From Isoetes taiwanensis (Eukaryota; Streptophyta; Lycopodiopsida; Isoetales; Isoetaceae), in the NCBI GenBank assembly GCA_021234155.1, contig JAJEKV010000051.1, forward strand, positions 7,724,761 to 7,788,760: a stretch of DNA of 64,000 nucleotides. The letters are read 5' to 3'. The translations under genes and the position numbers were made by a program. The notes under the pieces are model-generated. The model was given only the letters and a program-made list of their open reading frames with translations. It did no database searches and was not told the DNA's origin. This document shows positions 1,408 through 42,880 of this stretch, piece by piece (the stretch's first letter is position 1; every line of letters starts with the position of its first letter).

Positions 1408-1806
1408 TAGATTGAATTGAATTGAATGAATGCTTTTTTTATCATCCACGGAGACCAATCGGTCTATGTGACCTATATAAAAGCGCAACAGGCATATCAC
1501 TGCTCGGATTAAAAAACCCAGTCCTAAAGGGTTTTCGAGGGAAAAACCATAGTAGGAACAAGACTGCTAACAAGCTATACAAATATACATATGTACATGA
1601 TCAAGTATTTTCTGCTCATCAAGTGGTTGTCTAGGGGCATATCTGAACCCTCAGATCCATTATCTCCTGAATGTATGCTCCTAGTGATGCTGTATCATGT
1701 GTAGCGGCTCCTCGGGCCTGACCAAGACAGCTAGCATGTCCGGTGATCATATGCCGGGCAGCTCTAGAAAATAAGATGTTCATCCTCAATGGCTCCCATA
1801 ACAAGG
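1408..1806 (-). mobile_element. LINE 3' end fragment (copy 1), 5'-truncated
   Basis: On the minus strand this matches the 3' ends at 9430-9610 and 23691-24660. All share a hairpin of the form CGAAAACCC...GGGTTTTTTAATCC (here about 1505-1545) and then the block AGACCGATTGGTCTCC (about 1450-1470). The tail is an (ATTGA)n run at 1411-1426. Homology to copy 3 runs to about 1795, where the terminal repeat of transposon copy A begins. Either copy A inserted into this LINE, or the LINE copy was cut there. It has no coding capacity. Confidence 0.8.
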
Positions 1807-1858
1807 TTGCAAATTAAACGGGAGTGTTGTAGCACTCCCATTTCAAAGATTCCCTTTT
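1807..1858 (+). repeat. Terminal inverted repeat of transposon copy A
   Basis: The end starts TTGCAAATTAAACGGGAG. It contains an internal hairpin (GGGAGTG with a short loop then CACTCCC) and ends in a CAAAGATTCCCTTTT block. It matches the reverse complement of 21858-21909 almost base for base and 13650-13718 more loosely. A TTAA lies at 1814-1817 directly before ACGGGAG, so either the repeat starts at TTGC or TTAA is the target site. Confidence 0.85.
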
Positions 1859-2143
1859 CAAAACACCATGCTCTAAAAATTGACCCTTTTTGGAAAAAGT
1901 TGAGAATTTCAAAAGGTTCAGATTATTTTTCCTCTCATTTTGAATCCTCATTAAGGTAGAACCTTGTTTTTGTAAAGAAAAACACTTGAAAATGGCAAAA
2001 TTCAGACATGAGTACACAATCTTTGAAAGTAAGATATTGAAAACATCAAAATAAAGTAGAAAGAATAATTTTTTAATTTTTTTTAATACATCAATTTTGA
2101 CAATAATATAGTGTTAACAATAAATATTTTAGCATAAGACAAG

Positions 2144-5100
2144 TCAGAGGTCCAAATCATATTCTTCCTCATTTTGTTTGCTTGTCTCAGCTTGGTCCTT
2201 CTCCGTCATTTGCTCTTTTTGTGGTGATTTACTCTTGTCTATTTCTACATTTTCTTCAGGAATAGTAGCTAGAGCTACTTCTTTCAGCTTTAAAAAGGTA
2301 GCTTCATCGTCTAGAGAGCTTGTAAATGGAGGCTGTATCTCTGAAGATGTTATCTTGGCATAATCAGATGAAGTTTTGGTGCCAAATTCTTGATTCTCAT
2401 CTGGTAAAGTTGGTAAGGCAACCAATCTCATCTTGATAAAGTTCATAACCTCCTTGTCTATGTCAATGGCTACACAATTGCGGCCCTTCTTAAGTACCCG
2501 CAATTGTTGTACCAGAGCCAGAAAAAACATCAAGCACCCAATCTCCTAGACGTGAGAACACGTCAAGAAGATTGTTGATCAGTTTTTGTGGCTTCTGGTA
2601 ATGATTAACTATCCTGCCTTGTGCACTAGGGTCCTGCAGCTTCTGCAACACTGCTGGAAACTCTACGGCATTTGAAACTTTTTGGCAGGCTGCTGTGTTA
2701 AAATGTTCCATGGTTCGCTTTCCATTGAAACAACATGGAGATATTCCATCTTGCTCAGCAACCTAGGTCCTCCACCATGGTAATTAATATTTGTTTTGTA
2801 CCTACAGAAATAAAAGTAGTACAATTATCAACAAAAACTAAACACAGATCCAATGAGGTAACTATGACTGAATGCACCGTAAATAAGAAGGTCAACATGC
2901 AAACAACTTCAACAACAGAATCAAAACATGAATGAAAGTAAGAAACAACTGTATTCCAGAATAAGAACCTTACCAGACCATGTTTTCGTAACCTGCTGCA
3001 TGTACAGGGGATCCAAAGTGATTCTTGAAGGTGGGTTCCACAAGTCCTGCTTGCATGTTCGAGTGAAACACAACAAGATGCCAATTCTTGGCTGTTGTGA
3101 TCTGTTTAATGCCAGCAATGAATGCATTAAATTCAGAGTTTCTGAAGGGCTGGTCATCGTAGCGGCTGTCCTTTAGTTTGAAGCCATATGGAAGGTCTGC
3201 TATGACCAAAGTGAAATCCTGTGGCTTTACAGATCCAACCAATTTCGTGCAGCCCCCATGAATGATCGAAAACAGGTTGTTTTGATCAAACATACTAAAT
3301 CTCTCGTAGTCGGACGGCTCAGCATCTACAATCTGCCTGTCCGCTAATGACCTCTCCTCCCAGGCTGTCCTTACCAAGTGCATGGAGCCCTTTGGTAGGT
3401 CTTTGTTCTTCTTTTTGCTCTGTAACAAGAAAACGTTACTGCGACAATGTAAAACATGGAAGCTAAAGAGGAAACAGAAGAAGACGACGTTCACAACCAT
3501 CAAAATTTGGAGTGTATTGAATGATGCGTTTGTCAGAAGTGGCAATAGGGTAAAGTTCGTTACATATGTCCCAGGTGTCCACGTTTAATTATTCCATCAG
3601 ACATGTTTGACATGTTATGACATTCTTTTAGCTAAAATACAGCCAAGACAACAAAAAGTAAACCACAAACATCTTGAAAAAAGCAAGAGAAAAGATGCAA
3701 AACTAGCTTTGTATTCTGAAATACACATTCGCTATACAAGGGCAGCTAAAGTGTATTCTGGAATACACAATTGTTTTACGTTAAAGCATAAGTGAATTTG
3801 GGAATATACTTTTCGCTTTACACTACAGTAAAAGTGTATTCCAGAATACACTTTTGCTGTAGTGTAAATCAAACGTGTACTACAAAAACACTTTTGCTTT
3901 TCGAAAGAACTAACGTGCATTTCGGAATAACAAGTTGTTTACATATTGAAGTTAAGGTCAAACTTACTTGTGTAAACTTCTTGGACATTTCTTCCAACGT
4001 AAAGACCTTTGTCCACAACTTTTGTAGCAGCCTTTCTAGCAACTCCATGTCTGTAGAGCCCTGCATTTCTCTCCAGATGGTTATGGTCATCTCCTTTTTT
4101 GGTACTTCGGAGCCCTTCTTCTTGTCTGATACCTTCCCTTTGCTTTTCAATTCCCTCTGCTCAAACATATTAAAAATTTCGTTCTAGACTTCCCAGATCT
4201 GCACTTGAAAATGGAAAGCTGTTAGTGCGAGACAAGGGTAATTAAATAATAAAACTTATTCCGAAATGCAAGACATCCTTGCTCTGCTGTCTCTAAAAGC
4301 AAGTTGGAACCAATTGTCGTGGCTTATCAGTGGCTGCCTTTTATTAGCCTTGCCGTACTTAAGGCAGCATTCGATAGCATACACCTCCTTTAGCTCGAAA
4401 GAGTTGGCCGGCTTCTTGAGGTCGTCACCGAATCTTTCTTTGAAGATTATATACTCTCTGTGCATAAATCTTATCTTGTCGAGGAAGCTCATTTTAAGTT
4501 TGTACTCGTTGTCAGCATTGTGCATGTTGGTAACGATTTTTTCTTCTTCGTCTGTCAAGCCACAATAAACAGTAGAGAGGACTGAGATGTATCTCGGGTT
4601 ATTCTTTTTCTTGTATAGCTGTCTCCTTGCCTTGAAGCTGTGGTTACCTCATGAAACATAATGCATGTAAGTGTCTGCATTTTCTCTATCATACTACTGC
4701 GTTCTGTCCATAAGGACGACTATAGTAGCTACATAAGCATTGGGGATGCTCCTAATCCTGTCCTTCAGGTTCCTTAAATGGTCAGCATAAATTTTTCGAG
4801 CTTGAAGGGGCCTCCCACCAGCTTCATTCTTTGGTGGCAACCTCATTGATGTTATTGGCAAGTAAATCACACTTTGCACATACTTGTGCAAGTTTATTTC
4901 TTCCATCCTCTCCGAGGTCTTATCCACCTTCTTCTACTTGATGGCCACCCTTGGTGCCTTTCCTTTGCCTTTTTTTCTTTTGGAGCTTTCGTCTGGAATA
5001 TTTTCCACTGCAATTTGCTGCACCTTGTGTTTCTTTGATTCCTTGGCTGCAATGGTGTCTCGTAGCCAGTTCCTCTCTTGCTGCTGTTCTGATCCACTAG

Positions 5101-5290
5101 CACTTTGATCTTGTTGCTCTTTCGATCCACTTGAACTAGCAGCTTTGGGCCTTTCTTCTTCTACAATCTTGTTCTCTGATTCGTATGAAAAGTCCTCACT
5201 TAGAGTAGATTGGACCCTTTTTATGATGTCACCGAGCCTCTCTTTATTGACATAGTGTGCCATATACTTGTAGAGGGCTTCTGAGTTCAC
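2144..5290 (-). pseudogene. ParB-like / beta-class DNA methyltransferase, copy A (main part)
   Basis: Read leftward from 5290 this follows copy B exon by exon. First come an acidic, Ser/Gln-rich linker and a basic KKGKGK stretch. Next is the ParB-like region, with KIYADHLRNLKDRIRS near 4780 and NADNEYKLKMSF near 4500. A short exon near 4168-3969 follows, then an exon with YTPNFDG near 3500, then motif IV DLPYGF near 3195. The C-terminal end was the FSGSGTT motif I, near 2515. Lesions: an in-frame TAG at 4934-4936 (copy B has a Glu codon there), a frameshift near 4690, a donor changed from GT to GA near 4285, a frameshift near 2730, and a frame change near 2520. It cannot make a full protein. 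The copy was presumably once able to methylate DNA bases at the exocyclic amine; this is inferred from motifs only. Confidence 0.85.
3711..3868. repeat. Intronic palindrome cluster, copy A
   Basis: Three sites with the core GTGTATTCYRGAATACAC lie in the intron between the FERGELK-type exon and the YTPNFDG exon: 3711-3726, 3751-3768 and 3834-3851. The third sits at the centre of a 52-bp palindrome (3817-3868) whose 25-bp arms have one mismatched pair. Degenerate single sites occur at 2951-2963, near 3923 and near 4258, also in introns. Confidence 0.9.
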
Positions 5291-6089
5291 CCTGCAAGAG
5301 CTGTGCTCCCGACTTCACAGGGCCGAGAACGCGGCTCAGACTGCTACCCCGCCACAGCCTCCACGCCGGCAGCCAGGCCCCTGCACTGCTGCCCCGCACT
5401 CCAGCCACTCCACGCCATCCCAGCCACCACCACCACCCCCCCAGCACGGGACCCGGCCCTCGCCCACCTTTGACCCATGGGCCGCGAAACTCCGGGAGGC
5501 GCCAGCGGAGAGGCCTGTCGGTAGTTCGAGGCATGCGAGAAGCGGCCCGGGGAGAGTCTGCGCCCACAACATCCGAACACACATTCTCGATCGGATGACA
5601 TTCCGGGGCAGTTCACATTTCTCGAGCAGCCCGTCATGGGGCTCGGCCGTCGTGGACCGCATTGTCATATTCACGGTTGCGGATGCAGTGCGTGATGCCA
5701 TATTGCGCCCGGGGCGGATCTTTGAAGGGGACATCCACATGCGTGGACCGACCTCACCTCACACGGCGGCATGAGGCACGCAGCCGAGGGAGCTTGTCGG
5801 GTCGAGGCATTCACCACCGTGGGGTGCCGCGGGATTGGTTCGGCGGGATGCACATTTTTCGGCGGACACCGCCTGCTGCCGACCGCTGGCCCCAACCCCC
5901 AACGGTACCGCGTGGCCACCCTCTGCTTCTCCTACCACGGCCCCCTTCTCACTCTCCCTACTCCTCCCCTCCCGACCCATGCCCTCTCGACCACATCTTT
6001 TGCCTCCGCTCCATCTACTTCTCACTCAGCCTCTGCTTCCCGTCCTCCCCCCGCGACTCAGGCTGCGCATACCATCCCTGCTGACAAAT

Positions 6090-9000
6090 AGGAATTGTGC
6101 CTCCGGGTGGTCTCATGGAATTGTCGAGGCTTCCCTTGGCAGAAGGGGCGGTCCCGAACTCCGTGGGCGGCCGATATGGATCTCATCTTTCTCATGGAGA
6201 CATGGGAGCATCTTTGAGCCACGGGCTACGATCTGCCGGGTTACCAACATTTCTCGGTCTTCAATACACCATGCAGACGGAGGGGGTCATGGTGGAGTGG
6301 CTTGCTACTACCGGACAACCTTGGCACATTCGGTTACCCTCCAGAAGACAGACAGACACAACCGGTACTTGTGGGTTCGTGTGCATAATACCAATGGCAA
6401 CCCTCTTTTTCTGGCCGCCTGTTATTTCCCTCACGCAGAGAGCACCTTCTATCGCAGCCCACCCCGTCGCGGATAGGATGGACCCTTATGTCGATCTATA
6501 TGATGACATACAAAGCTTTCAACCAGCTTGGGTAGGGTCGTCCTTCTTGGAGACTTCAATGCACGGACAGGAGTAGAGCAGCCCATGCGACTTGACCCCC
6601 TCGCTGACGATGTCCTGCAGCTACGCCCCGCAGAAGCAACCTGGCCACGAGGATCGGATGACAGCCAGGTCACTCGCTTTGGCGACAGGTTGCTCTGCTA
6701 TGTGGTATTTTGACTTGATAATTTGCAATGGCACATCCGCGGTGGCCCGATTCTCGCAAGTGCACATGCGATGCAGGACAATCGAGGGGAAGGTCTAGTG
6801 TGGTGGACTATGTGCTCGTGGTTGCGCAAGATATGCATCTCATCGGTCGTTCCGGGTGGGCACAGATAATCGGGATGAGGAGGTCGACTTCGATCACCTC
6901 CCACTTTATTTGGACCTGGTTTGGCAAACCGCCGAACCCCCACTATGCCAGCCCCTCGCCCCTCGTTGAGACTAGATTATGAGCGGCAGAGGACTTCACG
7001 AGATGCTCATGGGCGCCCTCCGTAATTCTCATGGACCTCCACACTAGAGCGGCGTGAGCCGGACCAGTGACTTAGCTATTACGGGATCACGGACGGAGTG
7101 CTTTGGCGAGACCCCCACTGCGTCGCCGCTCCGGGATCAAGAACATTCCCGCGTAACCCGATGGTTTGATGCGAGTGTAAAAACGCATAGCGGCAGCTCC
7201 GTCACATTCGGATCCGTACCGCCTTGCGAGCCACCACACAATACCGCGCCCATCCGGAAGGAGACAAAGGCGGTACCTTCCGCCGAACATCGGGGAGATG
7301 TTCGCCTCGCTGACACTCATCCTCCCGAACCTTTTGGCGCAGAGTGCTTCAAGGCCAGCCCACCCTACGAGGGGACATCACACCCGGGCGGTGGGAACGG
7401 TACTTGCAGCGGCTCTATGACCCGCCAGGGGACGCGTGCGCCCATACCCCCACGGGATGGCCCCCATTGGTTCTCGTGGAGGAGGATGTTGAGGAGGCCC
7501 GCAACGGCCGCTAATGGGAAGGCGGTGACCTCGATGGTATGCGTGCCGAAAGTTACTCAAATGGGCGGGCGGCCGCGCTTGTGCGGTCCTCACTACCCTG
7601 TTCAGCGAGCATTGCGGGAAGGTCTCCCGGGCAATGGACCACAAGCGGGGTTGTTCCCATTCACAAGGTGGGCGACCCACCTTTGTCCGACCAATTCTGG
7701 GACGATCATGGTCGGTTCGATTTGCCAAACCGCTATCGGCATTCTCAAGCAGCAGTTGACCCGACCGGGCGAGGCGGCGGATATGCGAGCCCTCACACAG
7801 GCGGGCTTTAGACCCCGCCACTCAACGATTGACCATATCTTTACAACTGCGGGCACCGATTGAAGACAAACGGAATCATCTGCGGGGACTTGTATTCTTT
7901 GCTTTGTGGACTTCACGAAGGCTTTTGATACATTCCCCTGAAAAAGGCGTGGGCTAGGCTCGTCAGCTGGGGCTCCCGTACCGTGCGAGAATGCCATATA
8001 CACGGTTGTATGAGAGTTGTTTTGGCGGGATGCGGCCGGCGGGCCAAGCATTCACCAAGAGTATCGGGTCCCAAGCAGGGTTGCCCCCCCTCTCGCCAAC
8101 GCTTTTGGCCTCTACATTGATCGGGTTAGAGCCCCGGCTTCTGAGCATGGGGATGGCATACAGCGACTTTGCACCGGTCATCCGCCCGACTCATCTATCT
8201 CGAACGATGTTGGCCTGCTGGCCCACACCCCGAAGCTATGCGGTCTCACCGATGCCCTAGACACATTTTGTCGCTGATTTATGCGGCGTGAATCTAGCCA
8301 AGACCGGGTGGTTCTCATATCCTCTTCACGTCACCCCATGCATCCCCGTGACTCACATATCGGGGGCGACTGTGGAAGTCACGCCCACCTACAAGTACCT
8401 AGGGGTGGAGTTCCCCTCCTCGCTCTCTTGGGGAGGCGTCTATCCGCTTCGGGGTGACAACAGTGAAGAAAAGCGCTTTATGCCATGCGAGAACAACAAT
8501 CACCGTGCAGAGCTCTATGATTGGGGCCATCGGTCACATCTGTTCTGCCCTTACAGACGGGTCGAGGTTTGGGGCCCTGGCCGCCTCTTTGGCGACATGG
8601 AATGACTTGGAGCAGGTGTGCGAAGGCATTTTTGGCACGGCACTTGGGGTGAAACCTTCAGCCCCCTATCGATTCTCGCTGCGGAAATGGATTCTTGCCC
8701 GGTTCACGGGCAGCCCTTGATAGACACATCATCTATTTTCGAAAAGTGGTGGGTGATGCTCTGGCCCCACACCGCTTACACGTGGCAATGAGTCCGCAGC
8801 GGCTTAGGGCCCGTTGGAGGGTAAGAGAGATCGGTGGTTCGCCCGGATGGAACGTCGCGGGGAGCACGATGCATGCAGTGGACCAAATGCCGATCGTCGT
8901 GGACGGCCTCACGGGGAGTACCTAGGCGCTTGTTTCCTTGGCAAGCTCGGGGACCCCCGCTTTAGAGCAGGTCAAAACGCGACCCATTATAAGGAGCACA

Positions 9001-9270
9001 TCAACCCGTGTTAGCCCTGGGGCCCACAGCTCTACCTGCGTTCCCAAATGCCCACAAAAGCGGACTCATTGCCTCCATTCGCGAGTGCCCACCATCTTCG
9101 CATTGAGGCAGGCGGTGGATTGGGGAGCCCCCGCCAGACAGTGCTCTGTCGATCTTTGTCAAAGCGGGTGCCATTGAGGATGAGTCTCACACTTTCGAGT
9201 TGCCTAGCGTTGGTCGATCCGGGCGGATCACGCTCCCTTAGTCGGCGGACTTGCCCTTACATTTGCCGAT
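6090..9270 (+). pseudogene. LINE polyprotein remnant: endonuclease, reverse transcriptase, C-terminal CCHC-like region
   Basis: Pieces in all three forward frames align to the usual order of an APE-type LINE ORF2: endonuclease (6110-6830), RT fingers and palm (about 7630-8270), thumb (GTALGVKPSAPYRF near 8640-8675) and a C-terminal region near 9050-9180 matching the better preserved C-terminus of copy 3. The YADD-like site near 8195 is corrupted (SNDVGLLA). Copy 3 shares the ALGVK and HRLRIETG motifs, so they belong to one family. I cannot assign a clade with confidence. Confidence 0.8.
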
Positions 9271-9579
9271 GAACACACCGCCGATGCGTGCCACGGGGTC
9301 GTTACATTCGGGAGAGGTAATTGGACACCGCAAGGTCACCTTTGCCCCCGCCGCTCGGTGATTAGGCACTACGGTCTTGAGGGGCATGACTGTATATATT
9401 TGGGTGTTTACGCATTTTATATGTTAGGGACGGTTTGTCGGCCAGTGATTGTCGCCACGGTTTTTTTCCTCGAAAACCCTTCTGGTGGGGGGTTTTTAAT
9501 CCGGCAAGTCAATCCGCTTGTTGCTGCGTTTTTGTATTGGGTCCCATAGACCGATTGGTCTCCTTGGACGATAAAAGTA

Positions 9580-9610
9580 TCTTCCTTCCTTCCTTCCTTC
9601 CTTCCTTCCT
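9580..9610 (+). repeat. (CTTC)n microsatellite tail of LINE copy 2
   Basis: About seven CTTC/CCTT units directly after the conserved LINE 3' end. The other two copies of this LINE end in (ATTGA)n and (AGAAT)n, so the tail unit differs by insertion. Confidence 0.9.
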
Positions 9611-9612
9611 AG

Positions 9613-9859
9613 CCAGTCTAAAAAATGCCTGCTCCACAACCAGGCCTCCAGATTAGATTTTGATTAAACCGGCAAAATGCCGCGCTTTGTTGCTACTTAT
9701 CGGATTTTTCAAAAAATATCCTCTAATTTTCCGGATTTAACAAGCATTTTACAAAATTTTAACCAGAAATTTTCCGACATCTGTTAAAGAAACCGGATTT
9801 TAACAACTTCAACCAGAAATTCTGGGGAGGAACCCCCCAAATCTGGAGCCCTGTGGACC
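9613..9859. other. AT-rich segment between LINE tail and copy A exon
   Basis: No coding signal. It has several variants of an AACCGGATTTT / CCAGAAATTT block. Copy B has nothing at this place, so this is an extra insertion, an intron of copy A, or diverged sequence. A loosely similar CGGAAATTTT-rich stretch lies at 29190-29350. Confidence 0.4.
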
Positions 9860-10190
9860 ACAACTATAAACCCCTGGGACGGTTTGAAGGAGAGCCGTCC
9901 CTGTTGTCCAGACTGACTGGCAACCTCAGAAACTTCTTTTATAGTACCCATGCACTTAAACTCCCTATCATACCTTTTCTGTCCAGGACTTCCTAGACGT
10001 GCAAGAAAGTAAGGGTGCTGTTCTTTCCCGTCGTGCCCCTCGTTTTGGACCATTGCTTTTGAAAGTTTTTATAAATTGCTGGCTCAAATATGTCGTGGAC
10101 CTTTGCCTGTGGATGAGGCTTCTTGACAATCTTGAGTGTTCTTTTAGGAGCTCTTTTACTTCCTTCTTGCCTGTGGAAGAACAATTGTTA
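9860..10190 (-). pseudogene. ParB-like / methyltransferase, copy A N-terminal exon
   Basis: The minus strand after an acceptor-like TTCCACAG near 10165 reads QEGSKRAPKRTLKI, then TTGKNSTLTFL, PGQKRYDREF and SGQQGRLSF. This is co-linear with copy B at 17999-18310. A one-base deletion relative to copy B near 10000 adds a stop and shifts the frame. Similarity ends near 9860. The next homologous block is at 5290, on the other side of the LINE, which shows that the gene was whole before the insertion. Confidence 0.85.
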
Positions 10191-13463: not shown

Positions 13464-13649
13464 TCTTATCTAGTTCACAAAAACCAGCTTATGTGATAGA
13501 AGTTACACCAATAAGTTCTAGTAATCAGGCTCCAATTCACTAAAACCAGAAAATGATTCAACTCTTTGATCAGTTCGCTGCCCAACTGGGTCAATCGGTG
13601 TTAGGAATTGGCGGATTATGCAAGGCGACTGGCAATAGAATAAACAAAG

Positions 13650-13718
13650 TTGCGTATTAAACGGGAGCAAATCATTGAAACGAGAGCAAAAGGAATATTC
13701 CTCAAAGATTCCTTTTTT
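13650..13718 (+). repeat. Left terminal inverted repeat of copy B
   Basis: Starts TTGCGTATTAAACGGGAG and ends in CAAAGATTCCTTTT. Relative to the right end it carries extra bases in the middle and lacks the perfect internal hairpin. Confidence 0.8.
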
Positions 13719-13999
13719 TTTTTACAGAAAGGGGATAAAACGAGGTTAAAAAAAAAAGATGCATGAAATTCTATTTTGACCCCCCCAAATGACTATTTTT
13801 TTTTTTTTTGCAACGAAAGAATTGACTTTTTTAAAGTGTCACTTTTTTTAGCAAATAGAATGTTCTTAAAGTATGTTTTAAGAGAGAAACTCTAATTTCA
13901 GAGGATAAAATATTTAACAAAAAATTGAAGTAAGTCCAGAATCGAAATCGTAGTATTCTCAAAATTTGAAGATAGAATCTTCATATTCACATGCAAAAT

Positions 14000-16900
14000 T
14001 TCTGATCTTTTTCTAAGACTTCGGTTATGTGCAAAAGTGTGAGGAGTGATGAGAGAGGGATCCAGGGGCGTCATCATATTCATTTATGCCATCGTCATCA
14101 CCTTCACTTCTTTCATCATCACTTTCGAGGAAGTGCTTGAGTTATCTTCCTCATCACTTTGTCATCAACAGACGGTGAAGCATTGCCACCACCTTCTTCA
14201 TCATCTTCTTCATAATTACAAGCTTTTTTTAAGCAAATTGATAGTCCTCTCCATGAGATGATTGTCGATTTCAATTTAAAATCATAGCACAATATAGTCA
14301 CGTCATTAAGGTTCATTTCGTCCCTACAACCCACCTTCTTGGATTTTCTCCCTTTTCCTTGGCTTCTCATTTCTAACTCATATCTACCTTCAAAAGCATT
14401 TTCTCGAAAGGTGTTGCAAGTTAATGAATCTTGAGTTTAGTGACTAAGCCTTCCTCCTTGACTGTGTCAAGCACTTTTGCTATCCGAATCGGCCGACCTT
14501 TGTCATCCTCCTCGGTCGGAAGAGCAATTAGCATACCTTTGGTAATTTACGTGATATTACCTTGAGGCTCATTCTGCGTCTTGGTCCGAGATACATGACT
14601 CGATCCTCCCTCGTCTTCTCTCATCAAGGTGAAAATGTAGCCTTTGCTTGGACCTTGCTTTGGTTGGGGTTGATGGAAGGTGTCGCCATTGAAATGGTTC
14701 TTGCAACTGTCTTAGAGCTATATTTTGTACAACAATTTTCTGTTCGAGAAAGAAATTACTCCACTACATCCGATCTTCTTCTAAGAAGTACTTAAAGCCT
14801 GAGGAAATTCCATTTTCAATGGCTTTTAAGGATGACTCTGGGGTACTTTTCTTCTGCTTGGACTCCTTAGGATTTTTGAGAGGAAGTTGCTCAGCACGTT
14901 CTATGAAGGAAGTGTCTGGAATATATTTAAGGAAGCGTAATCCCTCTGGTGGACTCCAGTCTTTAGTTGTGGTATACTTCTTCCCCTGTAAGAAGCTTTG
15001 GCCATCCTTCAAGTAGAACTTGATGTGATGTTGAAAGGTGAGATCATTCAACTTGTTCACAGCTTGTTCTCTGTTTGAACGTTGAGAGAAAACAAACTCT
15101 CTGAAATCAGCAGTCTCTTTAAGAAGACCAACCACTGGAGTAGGAGTGTAAGAATCTTCAATAATTCGAACTAAAGCAGGAAGACAGAAAGCCTTCTTCC
15201 TTCTAAGGCGCACAAAAAATCTGCTGAACATTGATCATGAGTGTGGCCTACAAGTAAGAAACCGAACTTCACTTTTCTAAAGATCCCTAGCTCCACTAAC
15301 ATGGCACAGTACACAAAGAGTGTTTGATTCTTGTTCTCCCTTGTAGTATTGTCAAGTTGCAGATAAAGCACTGGTGGTAATTGCTCTTGCTCGCACAGGA
15401 CCTTGTTAAGAATTGTAATTGTGAGGTTCGGGTCACCATGCAAGTTTGGATACGTCAAAAATACTTTGCACTTTAGACTTCCTTCGAAGACCATAGCTCC
15501 TACAAGGTGGACCTTAACAAAACATTCCTCTGGCACATCTTTAGGAATGTTCAAGAAATGTGGTAGAGTTGTTTTGTTTTTTGTCCATTCCATCAATCAC
15601 AACAGACATGTATTGCAGTGGACGTTCAAGAGCTTTTTTTCTGTGCTTGGCAAGCTTTCTTCTCTCTGCTGCTTGTTGTTCACGATGTCTGGCAAGGTTT
15701 TGTTGCACAATATCTGTAGAAGAAATCAGGTCAAAGCATTTTCTTTAAAACAAGTGAGAGATTGGAGAACATGAGCTTACTTCTTTCGACCTCTGTCTTT
15801 GTAGTTTCTCGTTGACTCTTTAATTCTGCACACCTTGAGCAAACTGACATTCTATGTTTTCTAGGAATTTTCACAAGACCGAATTCACTTTTCCACAGTC
15901 TGGTGAAGTGTGAGTAAGAGATGTGCTGAAGCTGAGTGCAAGTCTCTTTGTACTCATTAAAAACATCTTTTTTTGTGATGTTATCAGTTAAATGATACAT
16001 GTTGCTGTTAGGTAGCTTCTCACATGTTTCTTTAAAATATTTCTCCATCCATGACACAGCAGCAAGGGCATGCATGGTTACAACTCTTCTCGGTCCACAA
16101 TGATCATCGATTGCTGGATTTTTGTCCAGTCTTTTATGTATTCTAGACATTCTGGTGGACCCTAAACGGTGGACAACCATAAAGCATTTCTGGCAAACTT
16201 CTTCACGGTTAATGTAGTGCAAGAAGGTGTTGCGGTCTGGTCTTACATGATAAGCTAAGTAGGCATTCAGTGCCGCCAATGTCATGGAACTGTAGTTGTC
16301 TCTAACTGCTCGTAATTTAGCCATGTTAAATCTGTTGATGCAACCCAATGAGTAGCATTTAGTTCTCAAAAGTCTCCTCATTTTGTGTTCATCCATAAGA
16401 TTTCTTCTTCTTACAGAGGAGCACGCCCTCAAACCAGAATCCACCTTGAATTTCTTTGAAGATTGGCTGGAGAACATATAATCTCTTTGTTCCTCGTTGG
16501 TGTCTTCATCTTCTGATGAAACTTCTACTCTGGGGGTGACTTCCTCTGTCCCCGAAAGTGGTGTGTTTGTAGAGGAAAAACAGGACCACGTGAAGTTGTT
16601 CCCTAAAAGGCGGGGTACAAATGTTAAAGGATGGTGATGGCCCATAAGAGGTTGTGGCATCAGCTGTTCTTGTACCATCTTGAAAAGGAGTTCTTGCAAA
16701 CATCTCCTTTAGAGCGGACTGGAATTCTGCAAATCCATGTGTCACAACCGTTGTGTGAAGAGGAGTGCATGCTGGAGCGTCGTCCTCATTTGTAGTGAAG
16801 TCATGGTGAGAGAAATTGTAGTGAATCTCACAGTCTTCTTTACTTTCTGTGTTCCTTGTATGTTTGAGTGAAGGGGGCGAAGCTACAAATGGGGGTAGCT

Positions 16901-17225
16901 TGTTCTTGAACACCCGTTGTTGTGGAGCTTCTGTAGGTGGTCCAGGGGATGGAACAAAGGGTGGTGGCAACATGCTCCGAACTGGTGGTGATGCTTTGGA
17001 AGGAGATGCCAGTGTACTGTCTACAGGACTTGGTGACGGTTGGAAGGGTGGTGGAATGGACTCGGTGTGTCTTCGAGAAGCAACAATGATGAAGTAGAGG
17101 TAGGAGTCGGAGAATGCCGGTCTTCAGTAGAAATGACGTTGTTCCCAAGCGTGTCCTTAGAACTAGAAGAGCTTGAGACAACAAAAGGTGGTGGAAGCTT
17201 GTTCACGAAACGGTTCGTCATCTTA
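14000..17225 (-). pseudogene. RNase H-type (DUF7869-like) transposase, decayed
   Basis: Read leftward. The N-terminus (17225-16500) is Pro/Ser-rich, with NKLPPPFV-type motifs repeated (near 17200 and 16905). A basic/Cys region follows (CSRCAEL near 15820). A 67-nt intron with GT-AG ends lies at 15714-15780. Then come the catalytic-type motifs VVIDGMD near 15585, LYLQLDN near 15365 and GHTHDQ near 15240. The C-terminus has GRPIRIAKVL near 14490 and an acidic tail near 14100. Such spaced Asp/Asp/His-Asp motifs are typical of the DUF7869 family of eukaryotic transposase-like proteins. Lesions: a frameshift near 16590, a one-base shift in an A-run near 15578, a deletion after GHTHDQ near 15237, and stops at 14400-14760. 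It presumably moved the element once. I do not assign a superfamily. Confidence 0.8.
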
Positions 17226-17553
17226 ACAACTACAAAATAGTAAAGAGATTTGAGAAACTTTCTGTAGTGCAGAGCTTTTCTTATTCCCGAATACACGCCC
17301 ACGTAGTACAAGTAGAAGTTCCAATACTAATCAAGTGAAAGTCAAAATAAACGCTATTCTGGAATACACAGGAGTAGGATAGTAAAGCTAAACGTATTCC
17401 GCTTCACATAGAAAAAGAGCAAGACGAAAATGATACCTTTAAAAGGAAATTCCGGCGCCTTCAGTTGCGTATTCCAGTCTCTGAGCTCAAGTCGCCAGCG
17501 CCAGCGTCTTCGATTAAAATATTCAGAGATCAGATTCGATCCACATAGAGAAA
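17226..17553. promoter_or_regulatory. Divergent promoter region of copy B
   Basis: About 330 bp between the 5' ends of transposase (minus) and methyltransferase (plus) genes. It holds palindromic sites TATTCCCGAATACA (17282-17295) and CTATTCTGGAATACAC (17354-17369), the same motif as in the introns. Promoter function is inferred from the gene arrangement only. I see no clear TATA box. Confidence 0.5.
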
Positions 17554-17607
17554 ATGGGCGGACAGAGTAAGAAAGTACAACGTACAATCATTTGTGTGTC
17601 TGTTTCT

Positions 17608-17745
17608 TATTCCCGAATACACTATCGCCTTCGAGTGAAAGCGAAAGTGTATTCCGGAATACACTTTCGCCTTCACTCGAAGGAGAAAGTGTATTCCGGA
17701 CACTTTCGCCTTCGAGAGAAGGCGAAGGTGTATTACGGAATACAC
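17608..17745. repeat. Palindrome array in first intron of copy B methyltransferase
   Basis: Sites at 17608-17622, 17647-17664, 17689-17703 (shortened) and 17728-17745. The second sits in a perfect 30-bp palindrome (17641-17670) with GCGAAA/TTTCGC outer arms. The sequence between sites (GCCTTCGAGAGAAGGCG and similar) also folds back on itself, so the whole 140 bp can form nested hairpins. Confidence 0.9.
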
Positions 17746-19715
17746 TTTCGCCTTCGGAATACACCTTCGTGTTTTTAGGTTTTAAAAGGTTATTTTTCCA
17801 TGAGTTTTTTAGTAATTTTAGGCGTTTTTCCTGCCTTTAGAACTTGTTTAGACCTGTTTCTTTGTCAAGATTGCAGTGCTGTTTTGGCATTTTTCTCCTT
17901 TTTTTGCCCTCTTTTTTCCCTTTGCAAGATATTTTGTATTCTGGAATAGTTTTTTGCCACTGTTTTCTCCAACAAGGTCGTGTTTACACACAATTTGCAC
18001 AGACAAGAAGGCAGCAAGAAACAACAGAAGAGGCCCCTTAAAATCCCACAGAAACCGCACCCACAGAGAAGGGTTGAGGAGACAGCTGCGCCTGCTATCT
18101 ACGAAAACTTCCAAACTCAATGGTTTTTTACAAGGGGTACTTCTGGAAAGTACAGCACCCTTACTTTCCTATATGTCTGTCGGAGCCCTGGAAATAAAAG
18201 ATACGATGACAGGGAATTTGTCTGCATGCACCATCCAGGCCGTGAGTGAAGTAGCTGGGGAGTCCGGTCAGCAAGGGAGACTGTCTTTTCAGACATCCCA
18301 AGGCTTTATTCATGTTGATGAAGCCTATCTTAGAGTGGTAAAAGTAAATCCTCAGCCTCTTTATAAGTATGTTTCTCACTACCTCAACAAGAGGTCTCTC
18401 TGTGCCATCATTAACTACATTCGAAGCACAACGAGCGAAGACTTCCCCTACAGCGAGTCATCACAAGGGGAAGAGGATAACCTACAGAGCCCGAGCAGTG
18501 CATCATCACAATCTGGGAGTCCATCACAGTCCGAAGAAAAGCCGCCGTCACCACCACCAAAGAAGCGGCAAAGGCCAACCATTGCTGCTAAAGAGCCTAA
18601 AAAGCAAACGGCTTTAATTGCAACAGAAGATGCTCCTGAGGAACCTAAGAAGAAGAAGGGGAAGGGCAAAGCACCTGGTGTTGCTATTAAAGAAAAAAAA
18701 GTTGATAAAACATATGAGAAAATGGAAGAGATTAACCTGCACAAATTTGTGCAAGGTGTCATTTATTTGCCAGTCACTTCAATGAAGCTTCCACCGAAAA
18801 ATGAAGCTGGTGAAAGGCCACTTCAGGTTCGCAAAATTTATGCCGATCACTTGAGGAACCTGAAAGACAGAATAAGGAGCAATCCAAATGCTCATGTGGC
18901 CCCAATAGTTGTCCTTGTTGACAAGGAGCAGTGCAAAACCCCCCAGGACTATGATAGAGAAAACGCAGATACCTACACTCACTATGTCTTGGGAGGAAAT
19001 CACAGCTTCAAGGCAAGAAGGCAACTTTATAAAGAGAAGAAGAACCCGAGGTACCTCTCCGTCCTCTGCGCTGTTTACTGTGATCTTACCGATGAAGAAG
19101 CAAAAATCGTTGCCAACACCCACAATGCTGACAACGAGTACAAACTAAAGATGAGCTTCGTCGACAAGATCCGGTTTATGCACAGGGAGTACGTAATTTT
19201 TAAGGAAAAGTACGGTGAGGACCTGAAGAAGCCAGCGTTTTCCTTGGAGCTTAAGGAGGCGTGTGCCATTGAATGCTGCCTGAAATATGACGAGGCCAAT
19301 AAAAGGCAGTCTCTCATTGGCCACGATAACTGGTTCCAATTAGCTTTTAGAGATGGCAAGGTAAGCACAAAACGTATTCCAGAATAACAATCCAACTATC
19401 TGACGTGAAATCTTCTTGAACAAATTTGGGAACTCCAGGACGAGATATTTACAATGTTCGAACGAGGGGAGTTAAAGAGCAAGGGCAAGGAGACAGCCAA
19501 GAAAAAATCATCTGGCGTGCCCAAAAAAGAAATGACCATTACCGTCTGGCGAGAAATGCAAGGCTTCTCCGACACAGAGCTTCTGGAGCAACTTCTCCAA
19601 AAAGTTGTTGATAAGGAGTTTAGCCTAGAAGAAATGTCAAAGGAATTGCACAAGTAAGATCTCTGACACAAACTTTACTCTTTAGATGTTAGAGTCCCAA
19701 AAACATCGGCGTAGA

Positions 19716-19977
19716 TATTCCAGAATACACATGCCTTCCTTCACATGGGCAATGTGTATTCCGGAATACACATTGCTTGTCTCTAGAAAAGCATTGTGTA
19801 TTCCGGAATACACATTGCTCCTCTGAAGAAAGGCATGTGTATTCTGGAATACACATGCCTTCTTCTAGAAAAGAATTGTGTATTTCAGAATACATATTGC
19901 TCCTCTGAAGGAAGGCATGTGTATTCTGGAATACGCATTCCTTCCTTCAGAGAAGCAATGTATATTCCGGAATACAC
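19716..19977. repeat. Seven-site palindrome array, period about 41 bp, in an intron
   Basis: Core sites start at 19716, 19754, 19796, 19837, 19878, 19919 and about 19960, i.e. steps of 38, 42, 41, 41, 41 and 41. Two units are perfect 28-bp palindromes with different outer arms: GCAAT/ATTGC (19749-19776) and GGCAT/ATGCC (19833-19860). The 23-bp stretches between cores are also loosely self-complementary. The array lies in the intron between the exons ending at 19653 and starting near 20166. Single sites follow at 20070-20084, 20773-20785 and 20811-20826, and one precedes at 19373-19387. Confidence 0.92.
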
Positions 19978-21857
19978 AATGCTTTTCTAGAGACAAGCAA
20001 TGTGTGTATCCTGTAACAGAACTATTTTCTGCATATTGTTTCGAGGTAGCATCACCAGTTAACCAGTTTGTATTCCAGAATACAAATAGCTTGACTTTTA
20101 TTTGTTTTCCTTCTACTTTGCCTTGTTTCTTACTTTTTAACTCATTGTTTCCTTAATGTCTACGTCGAGACATGGGAAAGGTGCAAGGAACTCTACCCAT
20201 TAGCCACTTCAGACGAGCGCATTGTGCAATATGCACCAAATTTTGAGGGCTGGGTAAGTACTCTCAAAATTCCTCGTCTTTGCACAAACGATCTCCTTAC
20301 AGTTGTTATGTTTTTCCTCAGAGCAAAATGAAAAACAAAGACCTTCCTGAGGGCTTTATGCATTTGGTTAGAACAGCACGGGAAGAGAGGTCGTTAGCTG
20401 AAAGAAGAACTGTTGAGCCAGAACCATCCGACTACGAGAGATTTTGCATGTTTGATCAAAACAATTTATATTCAAGCATTCATGGTGATTGCACGAACCT
20501 TGTCGAAACGGTTAAGCCACAGGACTTTACTTTGGTTATTGCTGATCTTCCCTACGGGTTTAAGCCTAAAGACAGCAGATACGATGACCAGCCCTTCAAA
20601 TTTTCAGAGTTTAATGCTTTCATTGATGGAATCAAGCAGATCACAACGGCCAAACATTGGCGTTTAGTTACGTTCCATTCGAGCATGCAGTCTGGCTTGG
20701 TAGAATCAGCTTTCAAAAACCATTTTGGTTCTCCAGTTCAGGCAGGATATGAAAACCTTGTCTGGTAAGTCTTATTCCAGAATACAGTAACTTTTCTCTT
20801 CGATTACGTAGTGTATTCCGGAATAGTATTTCCTGTTTCTGGTTTTCGAATTGTTTACTTGTTTTTGCTAACATCACTTTAAATGTTTCACTAGGTACAA
20901 AACGAACATCAACTACCATGGTGGAGGACCAAGGTTGCTCAGCAAGGTAGAGTACCTTCATGTAGCTTATTAGAGTCTTGATGGGAAGAGGACCATGGAA
21001 CACTTCAACACTGCCGCCTGTCAAAACTTTTCAAACGTCCTAGAGTTTCCAGCAGTCTTACAGAAATTGCAGGACCCAAGTGCACAAGGCAGGATTGTGA
21101 ATCACTACCAGAAACCACAAAAGCTCATCAACCATCTCCTGGACATGTTCTCGCGTCCAGGAGATTGGGTGCTTGATGCTTTCTCTGGTTCTGGTACTAC
21201 TATCGCATGTGCACTTAAGAAGGGCCGCAACTGTGTTGCCGTGGATATTGATAAGGATGCTGTGCATTTTGTGAAGATGAGACTGGCTGCCTTACCTACT
21301 TTACCAGATGAAAATCAAGAGAGAGGGGCCAAGTCTTCATCTGATTATGCTAAACTAACGTCCTCAGAGATACAGCCTCCATTCTCGAGCTCACTAGACG
21401 ACGAGGCAACCTTTGCAGAGCTTAAAGAAGTAGCTTTAGCTACCATTCCAGAGGACAAGGAGGATACAAAACTTAAGTCTCTAGCAAAGGAGCAGACGGC
21501 ACAGAAGGACGAGACGGCAGAGAACAACAAAAAGAATGATGAGGACTATGATGTAGATCTTTGACTACTGCATATTAAAACTATCATTATTTATTACAAT
21601 GAATCTTCCATAATGATGTACAAAAATTTATTAAAAACATAATACTTTTTTTTCCTTTCTATTCTGGTGCTTTTTTTTTGTCATGCTTTCAGTCTCTTCA
21701 AGTCTATGCCTAAATTTCGCTATTTTTATGATTTCTGTTTCATAAGTACAAAGTTATTGCCTAATGATGGCCCAGAATGACATGAAAAAAAATGCGAACC
21801 TCTATAAATTCTCAACAACTATAAAAAAAGGCTTATTTTAGAAACATGATGTTTTTT

Positions 21858-21909
21858 AAAAGGGAATCTTTGAAACGGGAGTGATGCAACACTCCCGTTT
21901 AATTTGCAA
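21858..21909 (-). repeat. Right terminal inverted repeat of copy B
   Basis: The reverse complement starts TTGCAAATTAAACGGGAG. The next bases form a perfect hairpin with 11-bp arms (AAACGGGAGTG and CACTCCCGTTT) around a 6-nt loop. It is nearly identical to the end of copy A at 1807-1858. Confidence 0.88.
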
Positions 21910-23690
21910 TCGTGTTAATAACTTCACAAGCAGAATAGCAAGATCTTCTTATCTGTACAAGACGTAATTTCCAAGTCCCTTTAGAATAGCAGGAAATTGT
22001 TGGGCATTCAAGTGATAGTAATCGGCTCTGCAATCTGCCAAGTCTTGCAGTAGAAAGTTCGATTTGAAACAATCATAGCTTCTCATCCAAAAATGGCCAT
22101 CCATGTATTACTGTAGCACCCCGTCCCCTTTTAATAGCAAATCGCCCTCTTCTCTTAATTATCCGCTCTCTTTTGCCTTAGATCAGTTCTATTCTAGCCT
22201 TTTAAGCATAAGAATATTATGAATTAAGAAATAATATTAAACCTTAACTATTATAAGGTTTTCTTTTGCCATTCAATTGCCTTGCCTTGCCAATTATTTG
22301 CGAAAACTAAACATCCATGCTAGTCCACCAAGACTAACATCCAAGATCGCACCCTCAAACTACTATATTCATATCAAACGATATGCAATATACTATAAAA
22401 GATAAGTGGCTCCACGATTAAATCATATCTATGGATTATACAGGAATGAATAGAAAAAGTATGGAAGAAAAAGCAATGTATTTGTATTTGACTTGGACAT
22501 TTGAATAAAAAGACGTGTTTGTGTGTGACTTGCCTACTGAAAAAAAAAAAAAAAAAATATTTCCTTGCTATCCTGATTGGTGCCTATATGTGTCAGGTGT
22601 TGCAAACTGCTTGCTTGCATGGGGCAATTCAACTATTTGAATAAATGCTTGAAATATATATTATTTTTTGGAATTGAGATTATTGTGAATATGCTCAAAG
22701 AGGATAGAGAAAATACATGTATGTAGTATAGTGACATGAAATACCATGTTCACACTTATGGGCAACAAATGTAGTTGAATGAAGTTTTAGACAAATGCTT
22801 CAAAGGAATATGGTTTTTTGAAATGCCATGCTTTAAACCCCAGCGATTCAACTTTATATAGTGGTGCTATATGTCATCTGTGTTCCTTGAAATTGGATAG
22901 AACACTCCTTATAAAGATGCCTACTAAGAAAAATCCTCCTTATACAGTTCCATATTTCCTCAAATTCTATACGCCTACCTTCGCTTTACCCCCAACTTTG
23001 TTAATTATGCTACCTTATAGCACTTATTGCCTCAAACTTCATGTCCTTATATATCTCTTCCCTTAAATTTACAAATTTAAAACAAATAACCTTACGTATA
23101 TGTACGACAATACATAGTACAAAAAAAAACCACCCAAGCACTCATGTTTTTTTTTAAGGTTCAATGGTATAAATCCCCCTTGGCTTTTAGTTTATATTTA
23201 ACATGGGAAGATGAAAGAAGCTCTGAAATTATTTGAGAAAAATGCAAAACAAGAATGTTATTGTATGGATTGTCATTTAAACTAAAGTCGATGATGGATT
23301 TTCGGGCTCATCCACAAGACAAACAACAATTAGGAGAACCAGTCCATTCATTGCATCTTATTGTAGCCAAGAAGTGGTAGGAGACTTTTTTACATCCTCT
23401 ATGGCAACCATTTGCAAGATTTTATGAGTCTATATATTGGGTTGGAGAGCTTCCATATTGATCGTTGTATTATTTGAAACATGATGTGTGTTTTATGTTT
23501 TTGAGCTATAAAATAGCTATATTTTTTCATGCCACCTTTAATAGGTAGACATATGTTTCTTATGATTCTCTCAAGGATTAACTATGCTATGCAAGCCTCA
23601 TCATATGTATTTGCTTGCCACCTCCTTAAGCTTGAGGAAGGCATTTTAAACAAGAGTTGGAAACTTTTGAAGCAATAGACTATTTATTTG
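21910..23690. other. AT-rich intergenic DNA
   Basis: No gene supported. A poly-A run of about 18 lies near 22541. The rest is AT-rich and without motifs I recognise. Confidence 0.5.
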
Positions 23691-42179: not shown

Positions 42180-42578
42180 CTATTTGTATATCTCGATTGG
42201 CCACTATATTTTGCCTCTAGATATGTTTCCTAAGTATAATTTTTGGTCAAAAATGCTGTTCCTGCCCCATTCTGTCTCTGTCAGTTCGTCTCCTGTCATT
42301 CACCGTCCGTCTCACTTGCCTCAATTTATCTATCCAAGAAAAGGACTTGGAATTTGGGCTTACTTTTATACGGTATAAAGCCCTAGTAGATTACACTGAT
42401 CCATATCCATCAATAATAGAAGATTAGACCAATCCATAGTTAGCCACGCAATTGATTTGCCACTAGGATTTGCCTCCACGTATGTTTCTTACATATTTTA
42501 CCAAAACTGCTATTCTTATATATCGATTGCCCACTATATTTTGCGTCGAGTATGTTTCTTACATAAATTTTGTCAAAA

Positions 42579-42650
<72 letters not shown>

Positions 42651-42667
42651 CATCTATCCATTCATTC

Positions 42668-42749
<82 letters not shown>

Positions 42750-42880
42750 TTTTCTATCTATCTATCAAAAAAAGGGACTTAGAAATTGGGCTTACTTTTA
42801 TATGCCAAAGCCCTAGTTGATTACATTGATCCATATCCATCAATAATAGAAGATTAGACCAATCCATAATAGCCACACAA
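42180..42880. repeat. Duplicated block with (CTAT)n expansion
   Basis: The block around CCACTATATTTTGCCTC (42200) and the block AAGCCCTAGT...AATCCATA (42378-42440) recur at about 42530 and 42807-42880. The second copy carries a (CTAT)n tract of about 190 bp at 42579-42766 with a few interruptions. The tract translates as a Tyr-Leu-Ser-Ile repeat but is not a gene. Confidence 0.9.

Follow-up and report, generated by a model that had tools for sequence, protein, structure and literature searches.

A two-gene transposon family of Isoetes taiwanensis with a DUF7869 gene, a methyltransferase gene with a probable ParB-like region, and arrays of a short palindrome

Background

Accessory genes for ParB and DNA methyltransferase (MTase) have been reported in algal transposons, including Sola1-1_Ec32 of Ectocarpus, and the authors of that report, in the parts of it available to us, already propose that such proteins bind and mark the sequence of their own element (PMC12477816); as it has been reported in algae, this kind of transposon is already known. 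A second point of reference is the accessory protein VANC21, whose targets are described, in the sections of the two papers that we could consult, as motifs repeated in tandem within noncoding sequence, among it the introns of both VANC21 and VANB21 and the DNA that lies upstream of VANA21 (PMC5735166, PMC10398659). Among retrotransposons, purifying selection with Ka/Ks below 0.2 is given for Gypsy of Klebsormidium nitens in the accessible part of a further study (PMC5890265). Here we describe a family of DNA transposons of Isoetes taiwanensis, starting from a stretch of 64,000 nucleotides (assembly GCA_021234155.1, contig JAJEKV010000051.1, positions 7,724,761 to 7,788,760 of the forward strand), which is called the window throughout. 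One element in it, bounded by terminal inverted repeats (TIRs), holds a gene for a DUF7869 protein and, on the other strand, a gene for an amino-methyltransferase with a probable ParB-like partner domain. New here is the repeated palindrome GTATTCCGGAATAC; the literature searched, which excluded most subscription journals, yielded neither a land-plant ParB-MTase transposon nor target arrays for a ParB-MTase.

Results

A complete transposon with two divergent genes

The preliminary description of this DNA had placed a TIR-bounded unit with divergent genes at 13650-21909. The unit is real, as its termini, a 4-bp target-site duplication (TSD) and Pfam matches on both strands demonstrate, and its ends were corrected to 13643-21916 once its termini had been read in register with those of copies fetched from elsewhere in the genome (stretches numbered with an L). 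The TIRs of the window copy start with AAC and finish with GTT; the DUF7869 gene lies on the minus strand and the amino-methyltransferase gene on the plus strand of the same unit.

13643..21916, no strand: complete TIR transposon, 8274 bp, with both termini and 4-bp TSD
13639..13642, no strand: left TSD, AATA, read from the sequence
21917..21920, no strand: right TSD, AATA, read from the sequence
13643..13667, plus strand: left TIR, AACAAAGTTGCGTATTAAACGGGAG, 25 bp
21892..21916, minus strand: right TIR, CTCCCGTTTAATTTGCAATCGTGTT, 25 bp, 5 mismatches against the left one
14020..17220, minus strand: putative DUF7869 transposase gene, frameshifted here; approximate ends, from comparison with L029 and L030
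18090..21564, plus strand: ParB-like/methyltransferase gene, intron-bearing, broken here; start approximate, exon ends from 14 aligned copies

The assembly searched comprises 1,658,258,908 bases in 1110 contigs. The last MTase exon gave 1111 first-look candidates, from whose best 40 places ranks 2-21 were fetched (MTase-anchored sample, n = 20); eight further stretches were anchored on the transposase gene, four of them picked for long open frames and four taken at ranks 25, 75, 100 and 125, ranks 50 and 150 being omitted because a ParB neighbour had already been seen there. Both ends are present in 13 of the 20 MTase-anchored copies, which are 8.0-8.6 kb long (L021, counted among them, has a diverged left end), and one end is missing within the fetched stretch in the other seven (L009, L011, L013, L015, L018, L023, L027). 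Four of the eight transposase-anchored stretches (L030, L031, L032, L038) likewise have both ends. A 4-bp TSD flanks each of these 13 and four copies and the window element, that is 18 of 18 two-ended copies; its composition is mixed (e.g. CCAC, AGGT, TTGC), a strictly AT-rich pattern being absent. In L016, L019 and L021 the TSD was taken from the terminal sequences themselves, as the computed boundary was displaced by one base. We regard the anatomy of a two-gene TIR element as near certain.

Arrays of a palindrome in noncoding DNA

With up to two mismatches, the 14-bp palindrome GTATTCCGGAATAC occurs at 17 sites in the window element, at 7-18 in every one of the remaining 13 full-length copies and at 8-14 in L029-L032; mononucleotide shuffles of three copies, 60 in total, contained no site. 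The sites of the window element are distributed as follows.

17281..17949, no strand: 6 sites between the genes (up to 2 mismatches)
19374..19387, no strand: one site in intron 1
19715..20083, no strand: 8 sites in intron 2, seven of them spaced 41-42 bp
20772..20826, no strand: 2 sites in intron 4, 41 bp apart

On our exon map, applied here to the window copy, all 17 sites are noncoding (noncoding DNA makes up 29% of the element), and 11 of the 17 lie inside MTase introns. Neighbouring palindromes often follow one another at 41-42 bp, a distance close to four helical turns. The preliminary description had supposed that the element might mark its ends; the candidate sites sit instead in MTase introns and in the intergenic stretch, and none was found at or near the TIRs of the window copy.

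All 10-mers (n = 11) and 12-mers (n = 7) that occur at least three times in each of the window, L024, L030 and L031 are pieces, variants or flanks of it, L024 being of the same family as the window copy and L030 and L031 far diverged. When element spans were joined across gaps of up to 1.5 kb, sites with at most one mismatch numbered 225 in 209 kb of element spans versus one in 125 kb outside them (window plus 28 stretches), and this lone outside site, in L015, lies 340 bp from another element fragment. The information content comes close to 2 bits within TATTC..GAATA and drops outside it; because the sites had been picked by their core, only this fall-off is informative. Flank symmetry exceeds that of shuffles in 142 tandem units (0.574 versus 0.461, highest shuffle 0.499) and does so barely in 93 isolated sites (0.380 versus 0.346, highest of 500 shuffles 0.394). 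As flank symmetry is thus found in tandem units and hardly in isolated sites, a protein-binding site is favoured over a hairpin.

The methyltransferase gene

The five exons of the plus-strand gene were delimited as follows.

18090..19360, plus strand: exon 1, with a conserved N-terminal region without family match, a charged linker and a ParB-like region (GGNHSFKARRQL)
19439..19653, plus strand: exon 2, with GT/AG ends in most of the 14 copies
20181..20253, plus strand: exon 3, its 5' part absent in the window copy; from the 14-copy alignment
20322..20764, plus strand: exon 4, with motif IV, DLPYGF, at 20544-20561; from sequence and alignment
20895..21564, plus strand: exon 5, with motif I, DAFSGSGTT, at 21175-21201; matches PF01555

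That this gene has introns and encodes a beta-class amino-methyltransferase, as had been read from the window initially, agrees with our results: exon ends are visible in most of the 14 aligned copies, PF01555 (N6_N4_Mtase) matches both the last exon of the window copy (E = 3.8e-17) and the spliced core of L012 (E = 5.4e-19), and motif IV (DxPY) precedes motif I (DAFSGSGTT), which is the class-beta order. The second position of motif IV is L in seven of the eight copies read (the window copy, the second copy in the window described below, L010, L012, L016, L031 and L032) and I in L030, so that the usual P is absent from all eight. The closest structures in the Protein Data Bank (PDB) are CcrM (6pbd, E = 5.8e-12, over positions 51-286 of the 289 of the MTase core), MboIIA (8.4e-8) and RsrI (2.2e-7), and we infer that the enzyme is an adenine-N6 or cytosine-N4 methyltransferase. 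Its partner domain is probably ParB-like and DNA-binding. For the N-terminal region (profile A4), the best PDB match had an E-value of 0.54.

The window copy carries a frameshift near 18200 in exon 1 and an in-frame stop at 20971-20973 in exon 5, a place where all 13 other aligned copies lack a stop. A 27-bp intron in the last exon was considered and rejected in favour of the in-frame stop, because the same 13 copies read through it; a methionine start at 18173 was rejected as well, since relatives extend upstream in another frame.

Against 5.8 billion proteins, the window ParB-MTase region had no match at E = 0.001 among 7060 candidates, and profile A2 found seven at E <= 1 among 7990 scored, the best at 1.8e-7 with 25% identity and a PF01555 domain. 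Viral contigs contributed 5 loci of 142 stretches, with 32-38% identity in the motif I part only. In tblastn searches of phages the MTase core hit 972 records, the best 20 of which are 25-27% identical, and the ParB part hit six at E <= 10, the best (E = 0.6) beside a terminase gene and one, at E = 4, a DUF6551 protein with a match to a ParB-like PHROG; a plasmid search gave a single record at E = 8.

The DUF7869 gene

PF25273 (DUF7869) matches two frames of the minus-strand gene (E = 2.8e-33 at 15174-15596 and E = 1e-7 at 14767-15234), the window copy being broken and spread across several frames. L029 has a single open frame of 987 codons (PF25273, E = 4.3e-51), and a small number of transposase frames are long among the stretches read. 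The DUF7869 protein is presumably the element's transposase. It had no match up to E = 1 in the PDB, the L029 protein had none at E = 0.001 among 7996 scored of 5.8 billion proteins, a PF25273 search of 14 control genomes found no DUF7869, and no mention of DUF7869 was found in the literature searched. In L029 (1752-4697, minus strand) the N-terminus of the transposase contains a peptide like RLPPPFVPSP, repeated several times.

A genome search with PF25273 returned 9903 first-look candidates (best 150 scored), some of them outside the list for the window subfamily. The family may occupy thousands of places, the candidate counts being mostly unscored. The expansion of DUF7869 in this genome is very large, and we found no description of it in the literature searched.

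Linkage of the two genes

Linkage was assessed between 105 listed ParB-exon places (of 4329 candidates) and 150 listed DUF7869 places (of 7117 candidates). Of the 105 ParB places, at least 34 lie within 15 kb of a listed DUF7869 place, where 0.28 are expected, and at least 30 of them, window included, are 1759-2898 bp from it and on the opposite strand. Transposase DNA is present in 17 of the 20 MTase-anchored stretches and MTase DNA in six of the eight transposase-anchored ones (in L029, part of the first exon only); L039 has no MTase in its stretch and a ParB place 11.6 kb from its DUF7869 place, both possibly belonging to the same interrupted element. In the DUF7869 tree, MTase DNA accompanies at least one member of every deep lineage. 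The two genes are linked across the whole genome and have long been so. Genes that are never linked, or TIRs around one gene only, had been named at the outset as what would speak against the proposed unit; we found linked divergent pairs throughout the genome, enclosed together by the TIRs.

Selection and exchange between copies

Nonsynonymous (dN) and synonymous (dS) divergence and their ratio (omega) were estimated by the method of Nei and Gojobori. Between the MTase genes of the window copy and L031, dN is 0.098 and dS 2.9 in exon 1 (part), dN is 0.125 with saturated dS in exon 4, and dN is 0.102 and dS 1.5 in the last exon; against L030, dN is 0.095 (exon 1) and 0.216 (exon 4), and among L026, L030 and L031 it is 0.21-0.25 in exon 1, in each case with saturated dS. 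Overall, MTase exons of different subfamilies differ by a dN of 0.095-0.254 and a dS of 1.47 to saturated, and DUF7869 has an omega of 0.10-0.21 between subfamilies. Both genes have clearly been kept by long-term purifying selection; the exact ratios are unreliable because dS is saturated. In close copies, omega is 0.17-0.66 for MTase exon 4 and the last exon, 0.10 for exon 1 (window, L026), and 0.33 (L029, L030) and 0.63 (L031, L032) for the transposase pairs.

Between the window copy and L031, dS is 0.62 in a DUF7869 piece of 141 codons versus at least 1.5 in MTase exons, and L038 and the second window copy shift position between the transposase and MTase trees. Because silent divergence and tree places differ between the genes, copies may exchange their transposase and MTase halves.

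A second, truncated copy in the window

The MTase gene had been described as present in two copies. A second stretch of it does exist, as a fragment with a single TIR and without a transposase match:

1800..10123, minus strand: second copy, truncated and from another subfamily, with a single terminus at 1800-1824, MTase sequence in two blocks (2159-5293 and 9859-10123) and nothing that matches a transposase

A GC-rich insert of about 4.6 kb (about 5300-9850) breaks it up, and several long frames in this insert (5775-6476, 7048-7863) resemble, by eye, a decayed non-LTR retrotransposon; six other frames of the window, those of the insert included, gave no Pfam match up to E = 0.01. An Rfam scan of the window at gathering scores found no match. 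A long stretch of simple repeats at about 42500-42810 of the window encodes repeated YLSI in two of its frames.

Discussion

Does the element mark its own DNA?

Taken as a whole, the data lead us to lean towards a two-gene TIR family whose accessory protein binds and marks its own DNA. For a self-marking role of the ParB-MTase by itself we consider the chances even, and an anti-silencing role in particular, suggested by analogy, is put forward tentatively. In mechanistic terms, the accessory protein, or a partner, would bind the palindrome arrays as a dimer, the MTase would methylate the element's own noncoding DNA near the arrays, and this methylation would keep the element's promoter active despite host silencing, as VANC does but by a different chemistry; it may also couple expression or transposition to DNA replication. 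We propose the accessory protein as the binder of the arrays, and the transposase as a less likely one, because the layout of the sites matches that of the VANC21 targets. The most specific version of this proposal, in which the ParB-MTase would load on GTATTCCGGAATAC arrays in promoter and introns and write N6-methyladenine (6mA) or N4-methylcytosine (4mC), bases outside the cytosine-C5 silencing of plants, in order to stay active, strikes us as conceivable but rather unlikely in all its parts, 6mA or 4mC as the bases that escape silencing included.

A number of observations weigh against self-marking. The ParB-like domain, a claim of the preliminary description, stands as a weak likeness: three copies have TIGR03764 as their top NCBIfam hit (E = 7.6e-4, 4.2e-4 and 0.014), all far below the curated cut-off, and PHROG 723 matches weakly (E = 0.023). 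Pfam searches of the window frames and of a spliced copy found no match for this region, in the PDB the ParB-like exon found nothing below E = 0.48 and profile A3 of the ParB-like region nothing up to E = 5, and an AlphaFold model computed from the single sequence was unusable (pLDDT 37). The binder of the palindromes could be the transposase. Three stretches (L013, L015, L027) have MTase ends and no transposase, and one of the eight transposase-anchored stretches, L041, shows a transposase end with TIR and neither MTase nor palindrome in 9.8 kb, which makes it either a copy shortened by deletion or a related element that has no MTase. In the CpG and CHG columns of the 14 aligned copies, transitions and transversions are both raised relative to other C/G columns; as both are raised alike, there is no clean trace of host 5-methylcytosine at the elements, and its deamination was rejected as proof of silencing on account of this mixed signal. 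The raised changes of both kinds at CpG and CHG perhaps reflect basecalling errors at modified bases.

Every one of the 14 aligned copies, moreover, is broken in at least one MTase exon, a count in which assembly errors are not separable from decay. The search for intact copies in the same genome thus recovered complete two-ended elements and, among the 14 aligned, no unbroken MTase gene, with some single exons open (exon 1 of L026; exon 4 and the last exon of L010 and L012). Small indels are a usual type of error in Nanopore assemblies. The assembly of Isoetes taiwanensis (1658.30 Mb in 204 scaffolds and 909 contigs) is described, in the part of the publication available to us, as built from Illumina, Nanopore and Bionano data (PMC8566536). 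The decay of the MTase gene may therefore be overestimated; some of the breaks in the window copy may be sequencing errors.

Alternative explanations

Among the alternatives, the one that survives best, though unlikely, holds that the transposase, or an N-terminal part of it, uses the palindromes as repressor or enhancer sites and that the MTase acts elsewhere, for example at the ends, where it would gate transposition to a phase of replication. Dam methylation is known to gate IS10 transposition to one replication phase. Regulation of IS10 by adenine methylation is also named in the part of PMC3627910 that was accessible, and the palindromes between the genes adjoin the start of the transposase gene. 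However, the absence of window sites from the TIRs and the location of 11 of the 17 in MTase introns favour a tie to the MTase gene.

It appears improbable that the arrays are merely structural and the MTase unrelated to them, the inverted repeats of intron 2 giving rise to hairpin RNA (and small RNAs), to cruciforms or to slippage-prone repeats. Intron 2 does contain 117-nt arms that are 87% complementary, and the symmetric flanks of the 142 tandem units would fit; yet the 93 isolated sites, with little flank symmetry, keep the core, a match that is in part due to the choice of sites. Still less credible is a protein that modifies RNA, or competes with the host or with rival elements, and leaves its own DNA alone: some amino-methyltransferase folds do act on substrates other than DNA, but the closest solved relatives by sequence (CcrM, MboIIA and RsrI) are DNA enzymes. 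That the MTase is a captured and decaying passenger without a role for the element, as the 14 broken copies and an omega of up to 0.66 among close copies might suggest, is very improbable in view of the purifying selection between subfamilies, the gene order kept through near-saturated synonymous divergence and the MTase DNA in every deep DUF7869 lineage.

Significance

Of the initial interpretation of the locus we retain that this is a TIR transposon of a plant and that an MTase gene is linked in divergent orientation, and we give up the marking of ends and a full second copy. The family carries a class of transposons with their own bacterial-type MTase, recently noted in algae, into a vascular plant. 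To our knowledge, and as far as the literature searched goes, there has been no functional test of the algal ParB-MTase transposons; the candidate target sequence makes the question of self-binding and marking directly testable. The occurrence of 6mA and 4mC in plant nuclear DNA is a disputed subject, and the Isoetes elements are a clean place to seek them.

Comparison with known systems

The following comparisons refer to the portions of the cited papers that were available to us. Like Sola1-1_Ec32, the Isoetes element is a DNA transposon whose accessory gene lies on the strand opposite to the transposase and joins a ParB-like domain, a probable one in Isoetes, and a 4mC/6mA-type MTase in one protein (1104 aa in Sola1-1_Ec32); in contrast, Sola1-1_Ec32 is 21.5 kb long and the Isoetes copies 8.0-8.6 kb, and the algal elements come from brown, green and red algae and the present family from a land plant. 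Those portions make no mention of palindrome arrays for the algal elements (PMC12477816). The 4-bp TSD fits the Sola superfamily, whereas the TSDs of Sola2 are AT-rich (AWWT). Other DNA transposons of eukaryotes or giant viruses are partly alike, namely Mariner elements with an extra MTase and Sola2 with a 4-bp TSD and an 888-aa transposase, but the MTases of these elements are Methyltransf_26 and cytosine-C5 enzymes, unlike the N6/N4 type found here.

Mobile elements with a DNA MTase of their own also include DIRS (Dam-like MTase) and the DNMT retrotransposons, which differ in being retrotransposons with Dam-like or C5 enzymes (PMC5890265). A bacterial-type N6_N4_MTase domain in a eukaryote, active in that case, is known from N4CMT of bdelloid rotifers; N4CMT is a host gene with a chromodomain and the motif SPPY that deposits 4mC at transposons, whereas the Isoetes gene belongs to the element and has DLPY (PMC8885841).

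The likeness to VANDAL21 and VANC of Arabidopsis is one of analogy and not of membership: both have an accessory protein beside the transposase, and in both the noncoding DNA, including introns of the accessory gene, holds motif arrays. VANDAL elements are a Mutator-like family with a TSD of about 9 bp, and the Isoetes elements have DUF7869 and a 4-bp TSD. VANC is reported to cause a loss of DNA methylation, whereas the Isoetes element encodes a methyltransferase, and its motif is a palindrome. If the ParB-MTase does write 6mA or 4mC at its own arrays, the Isoetes system would be a convergent, chemically distinct counterpart of VANC.

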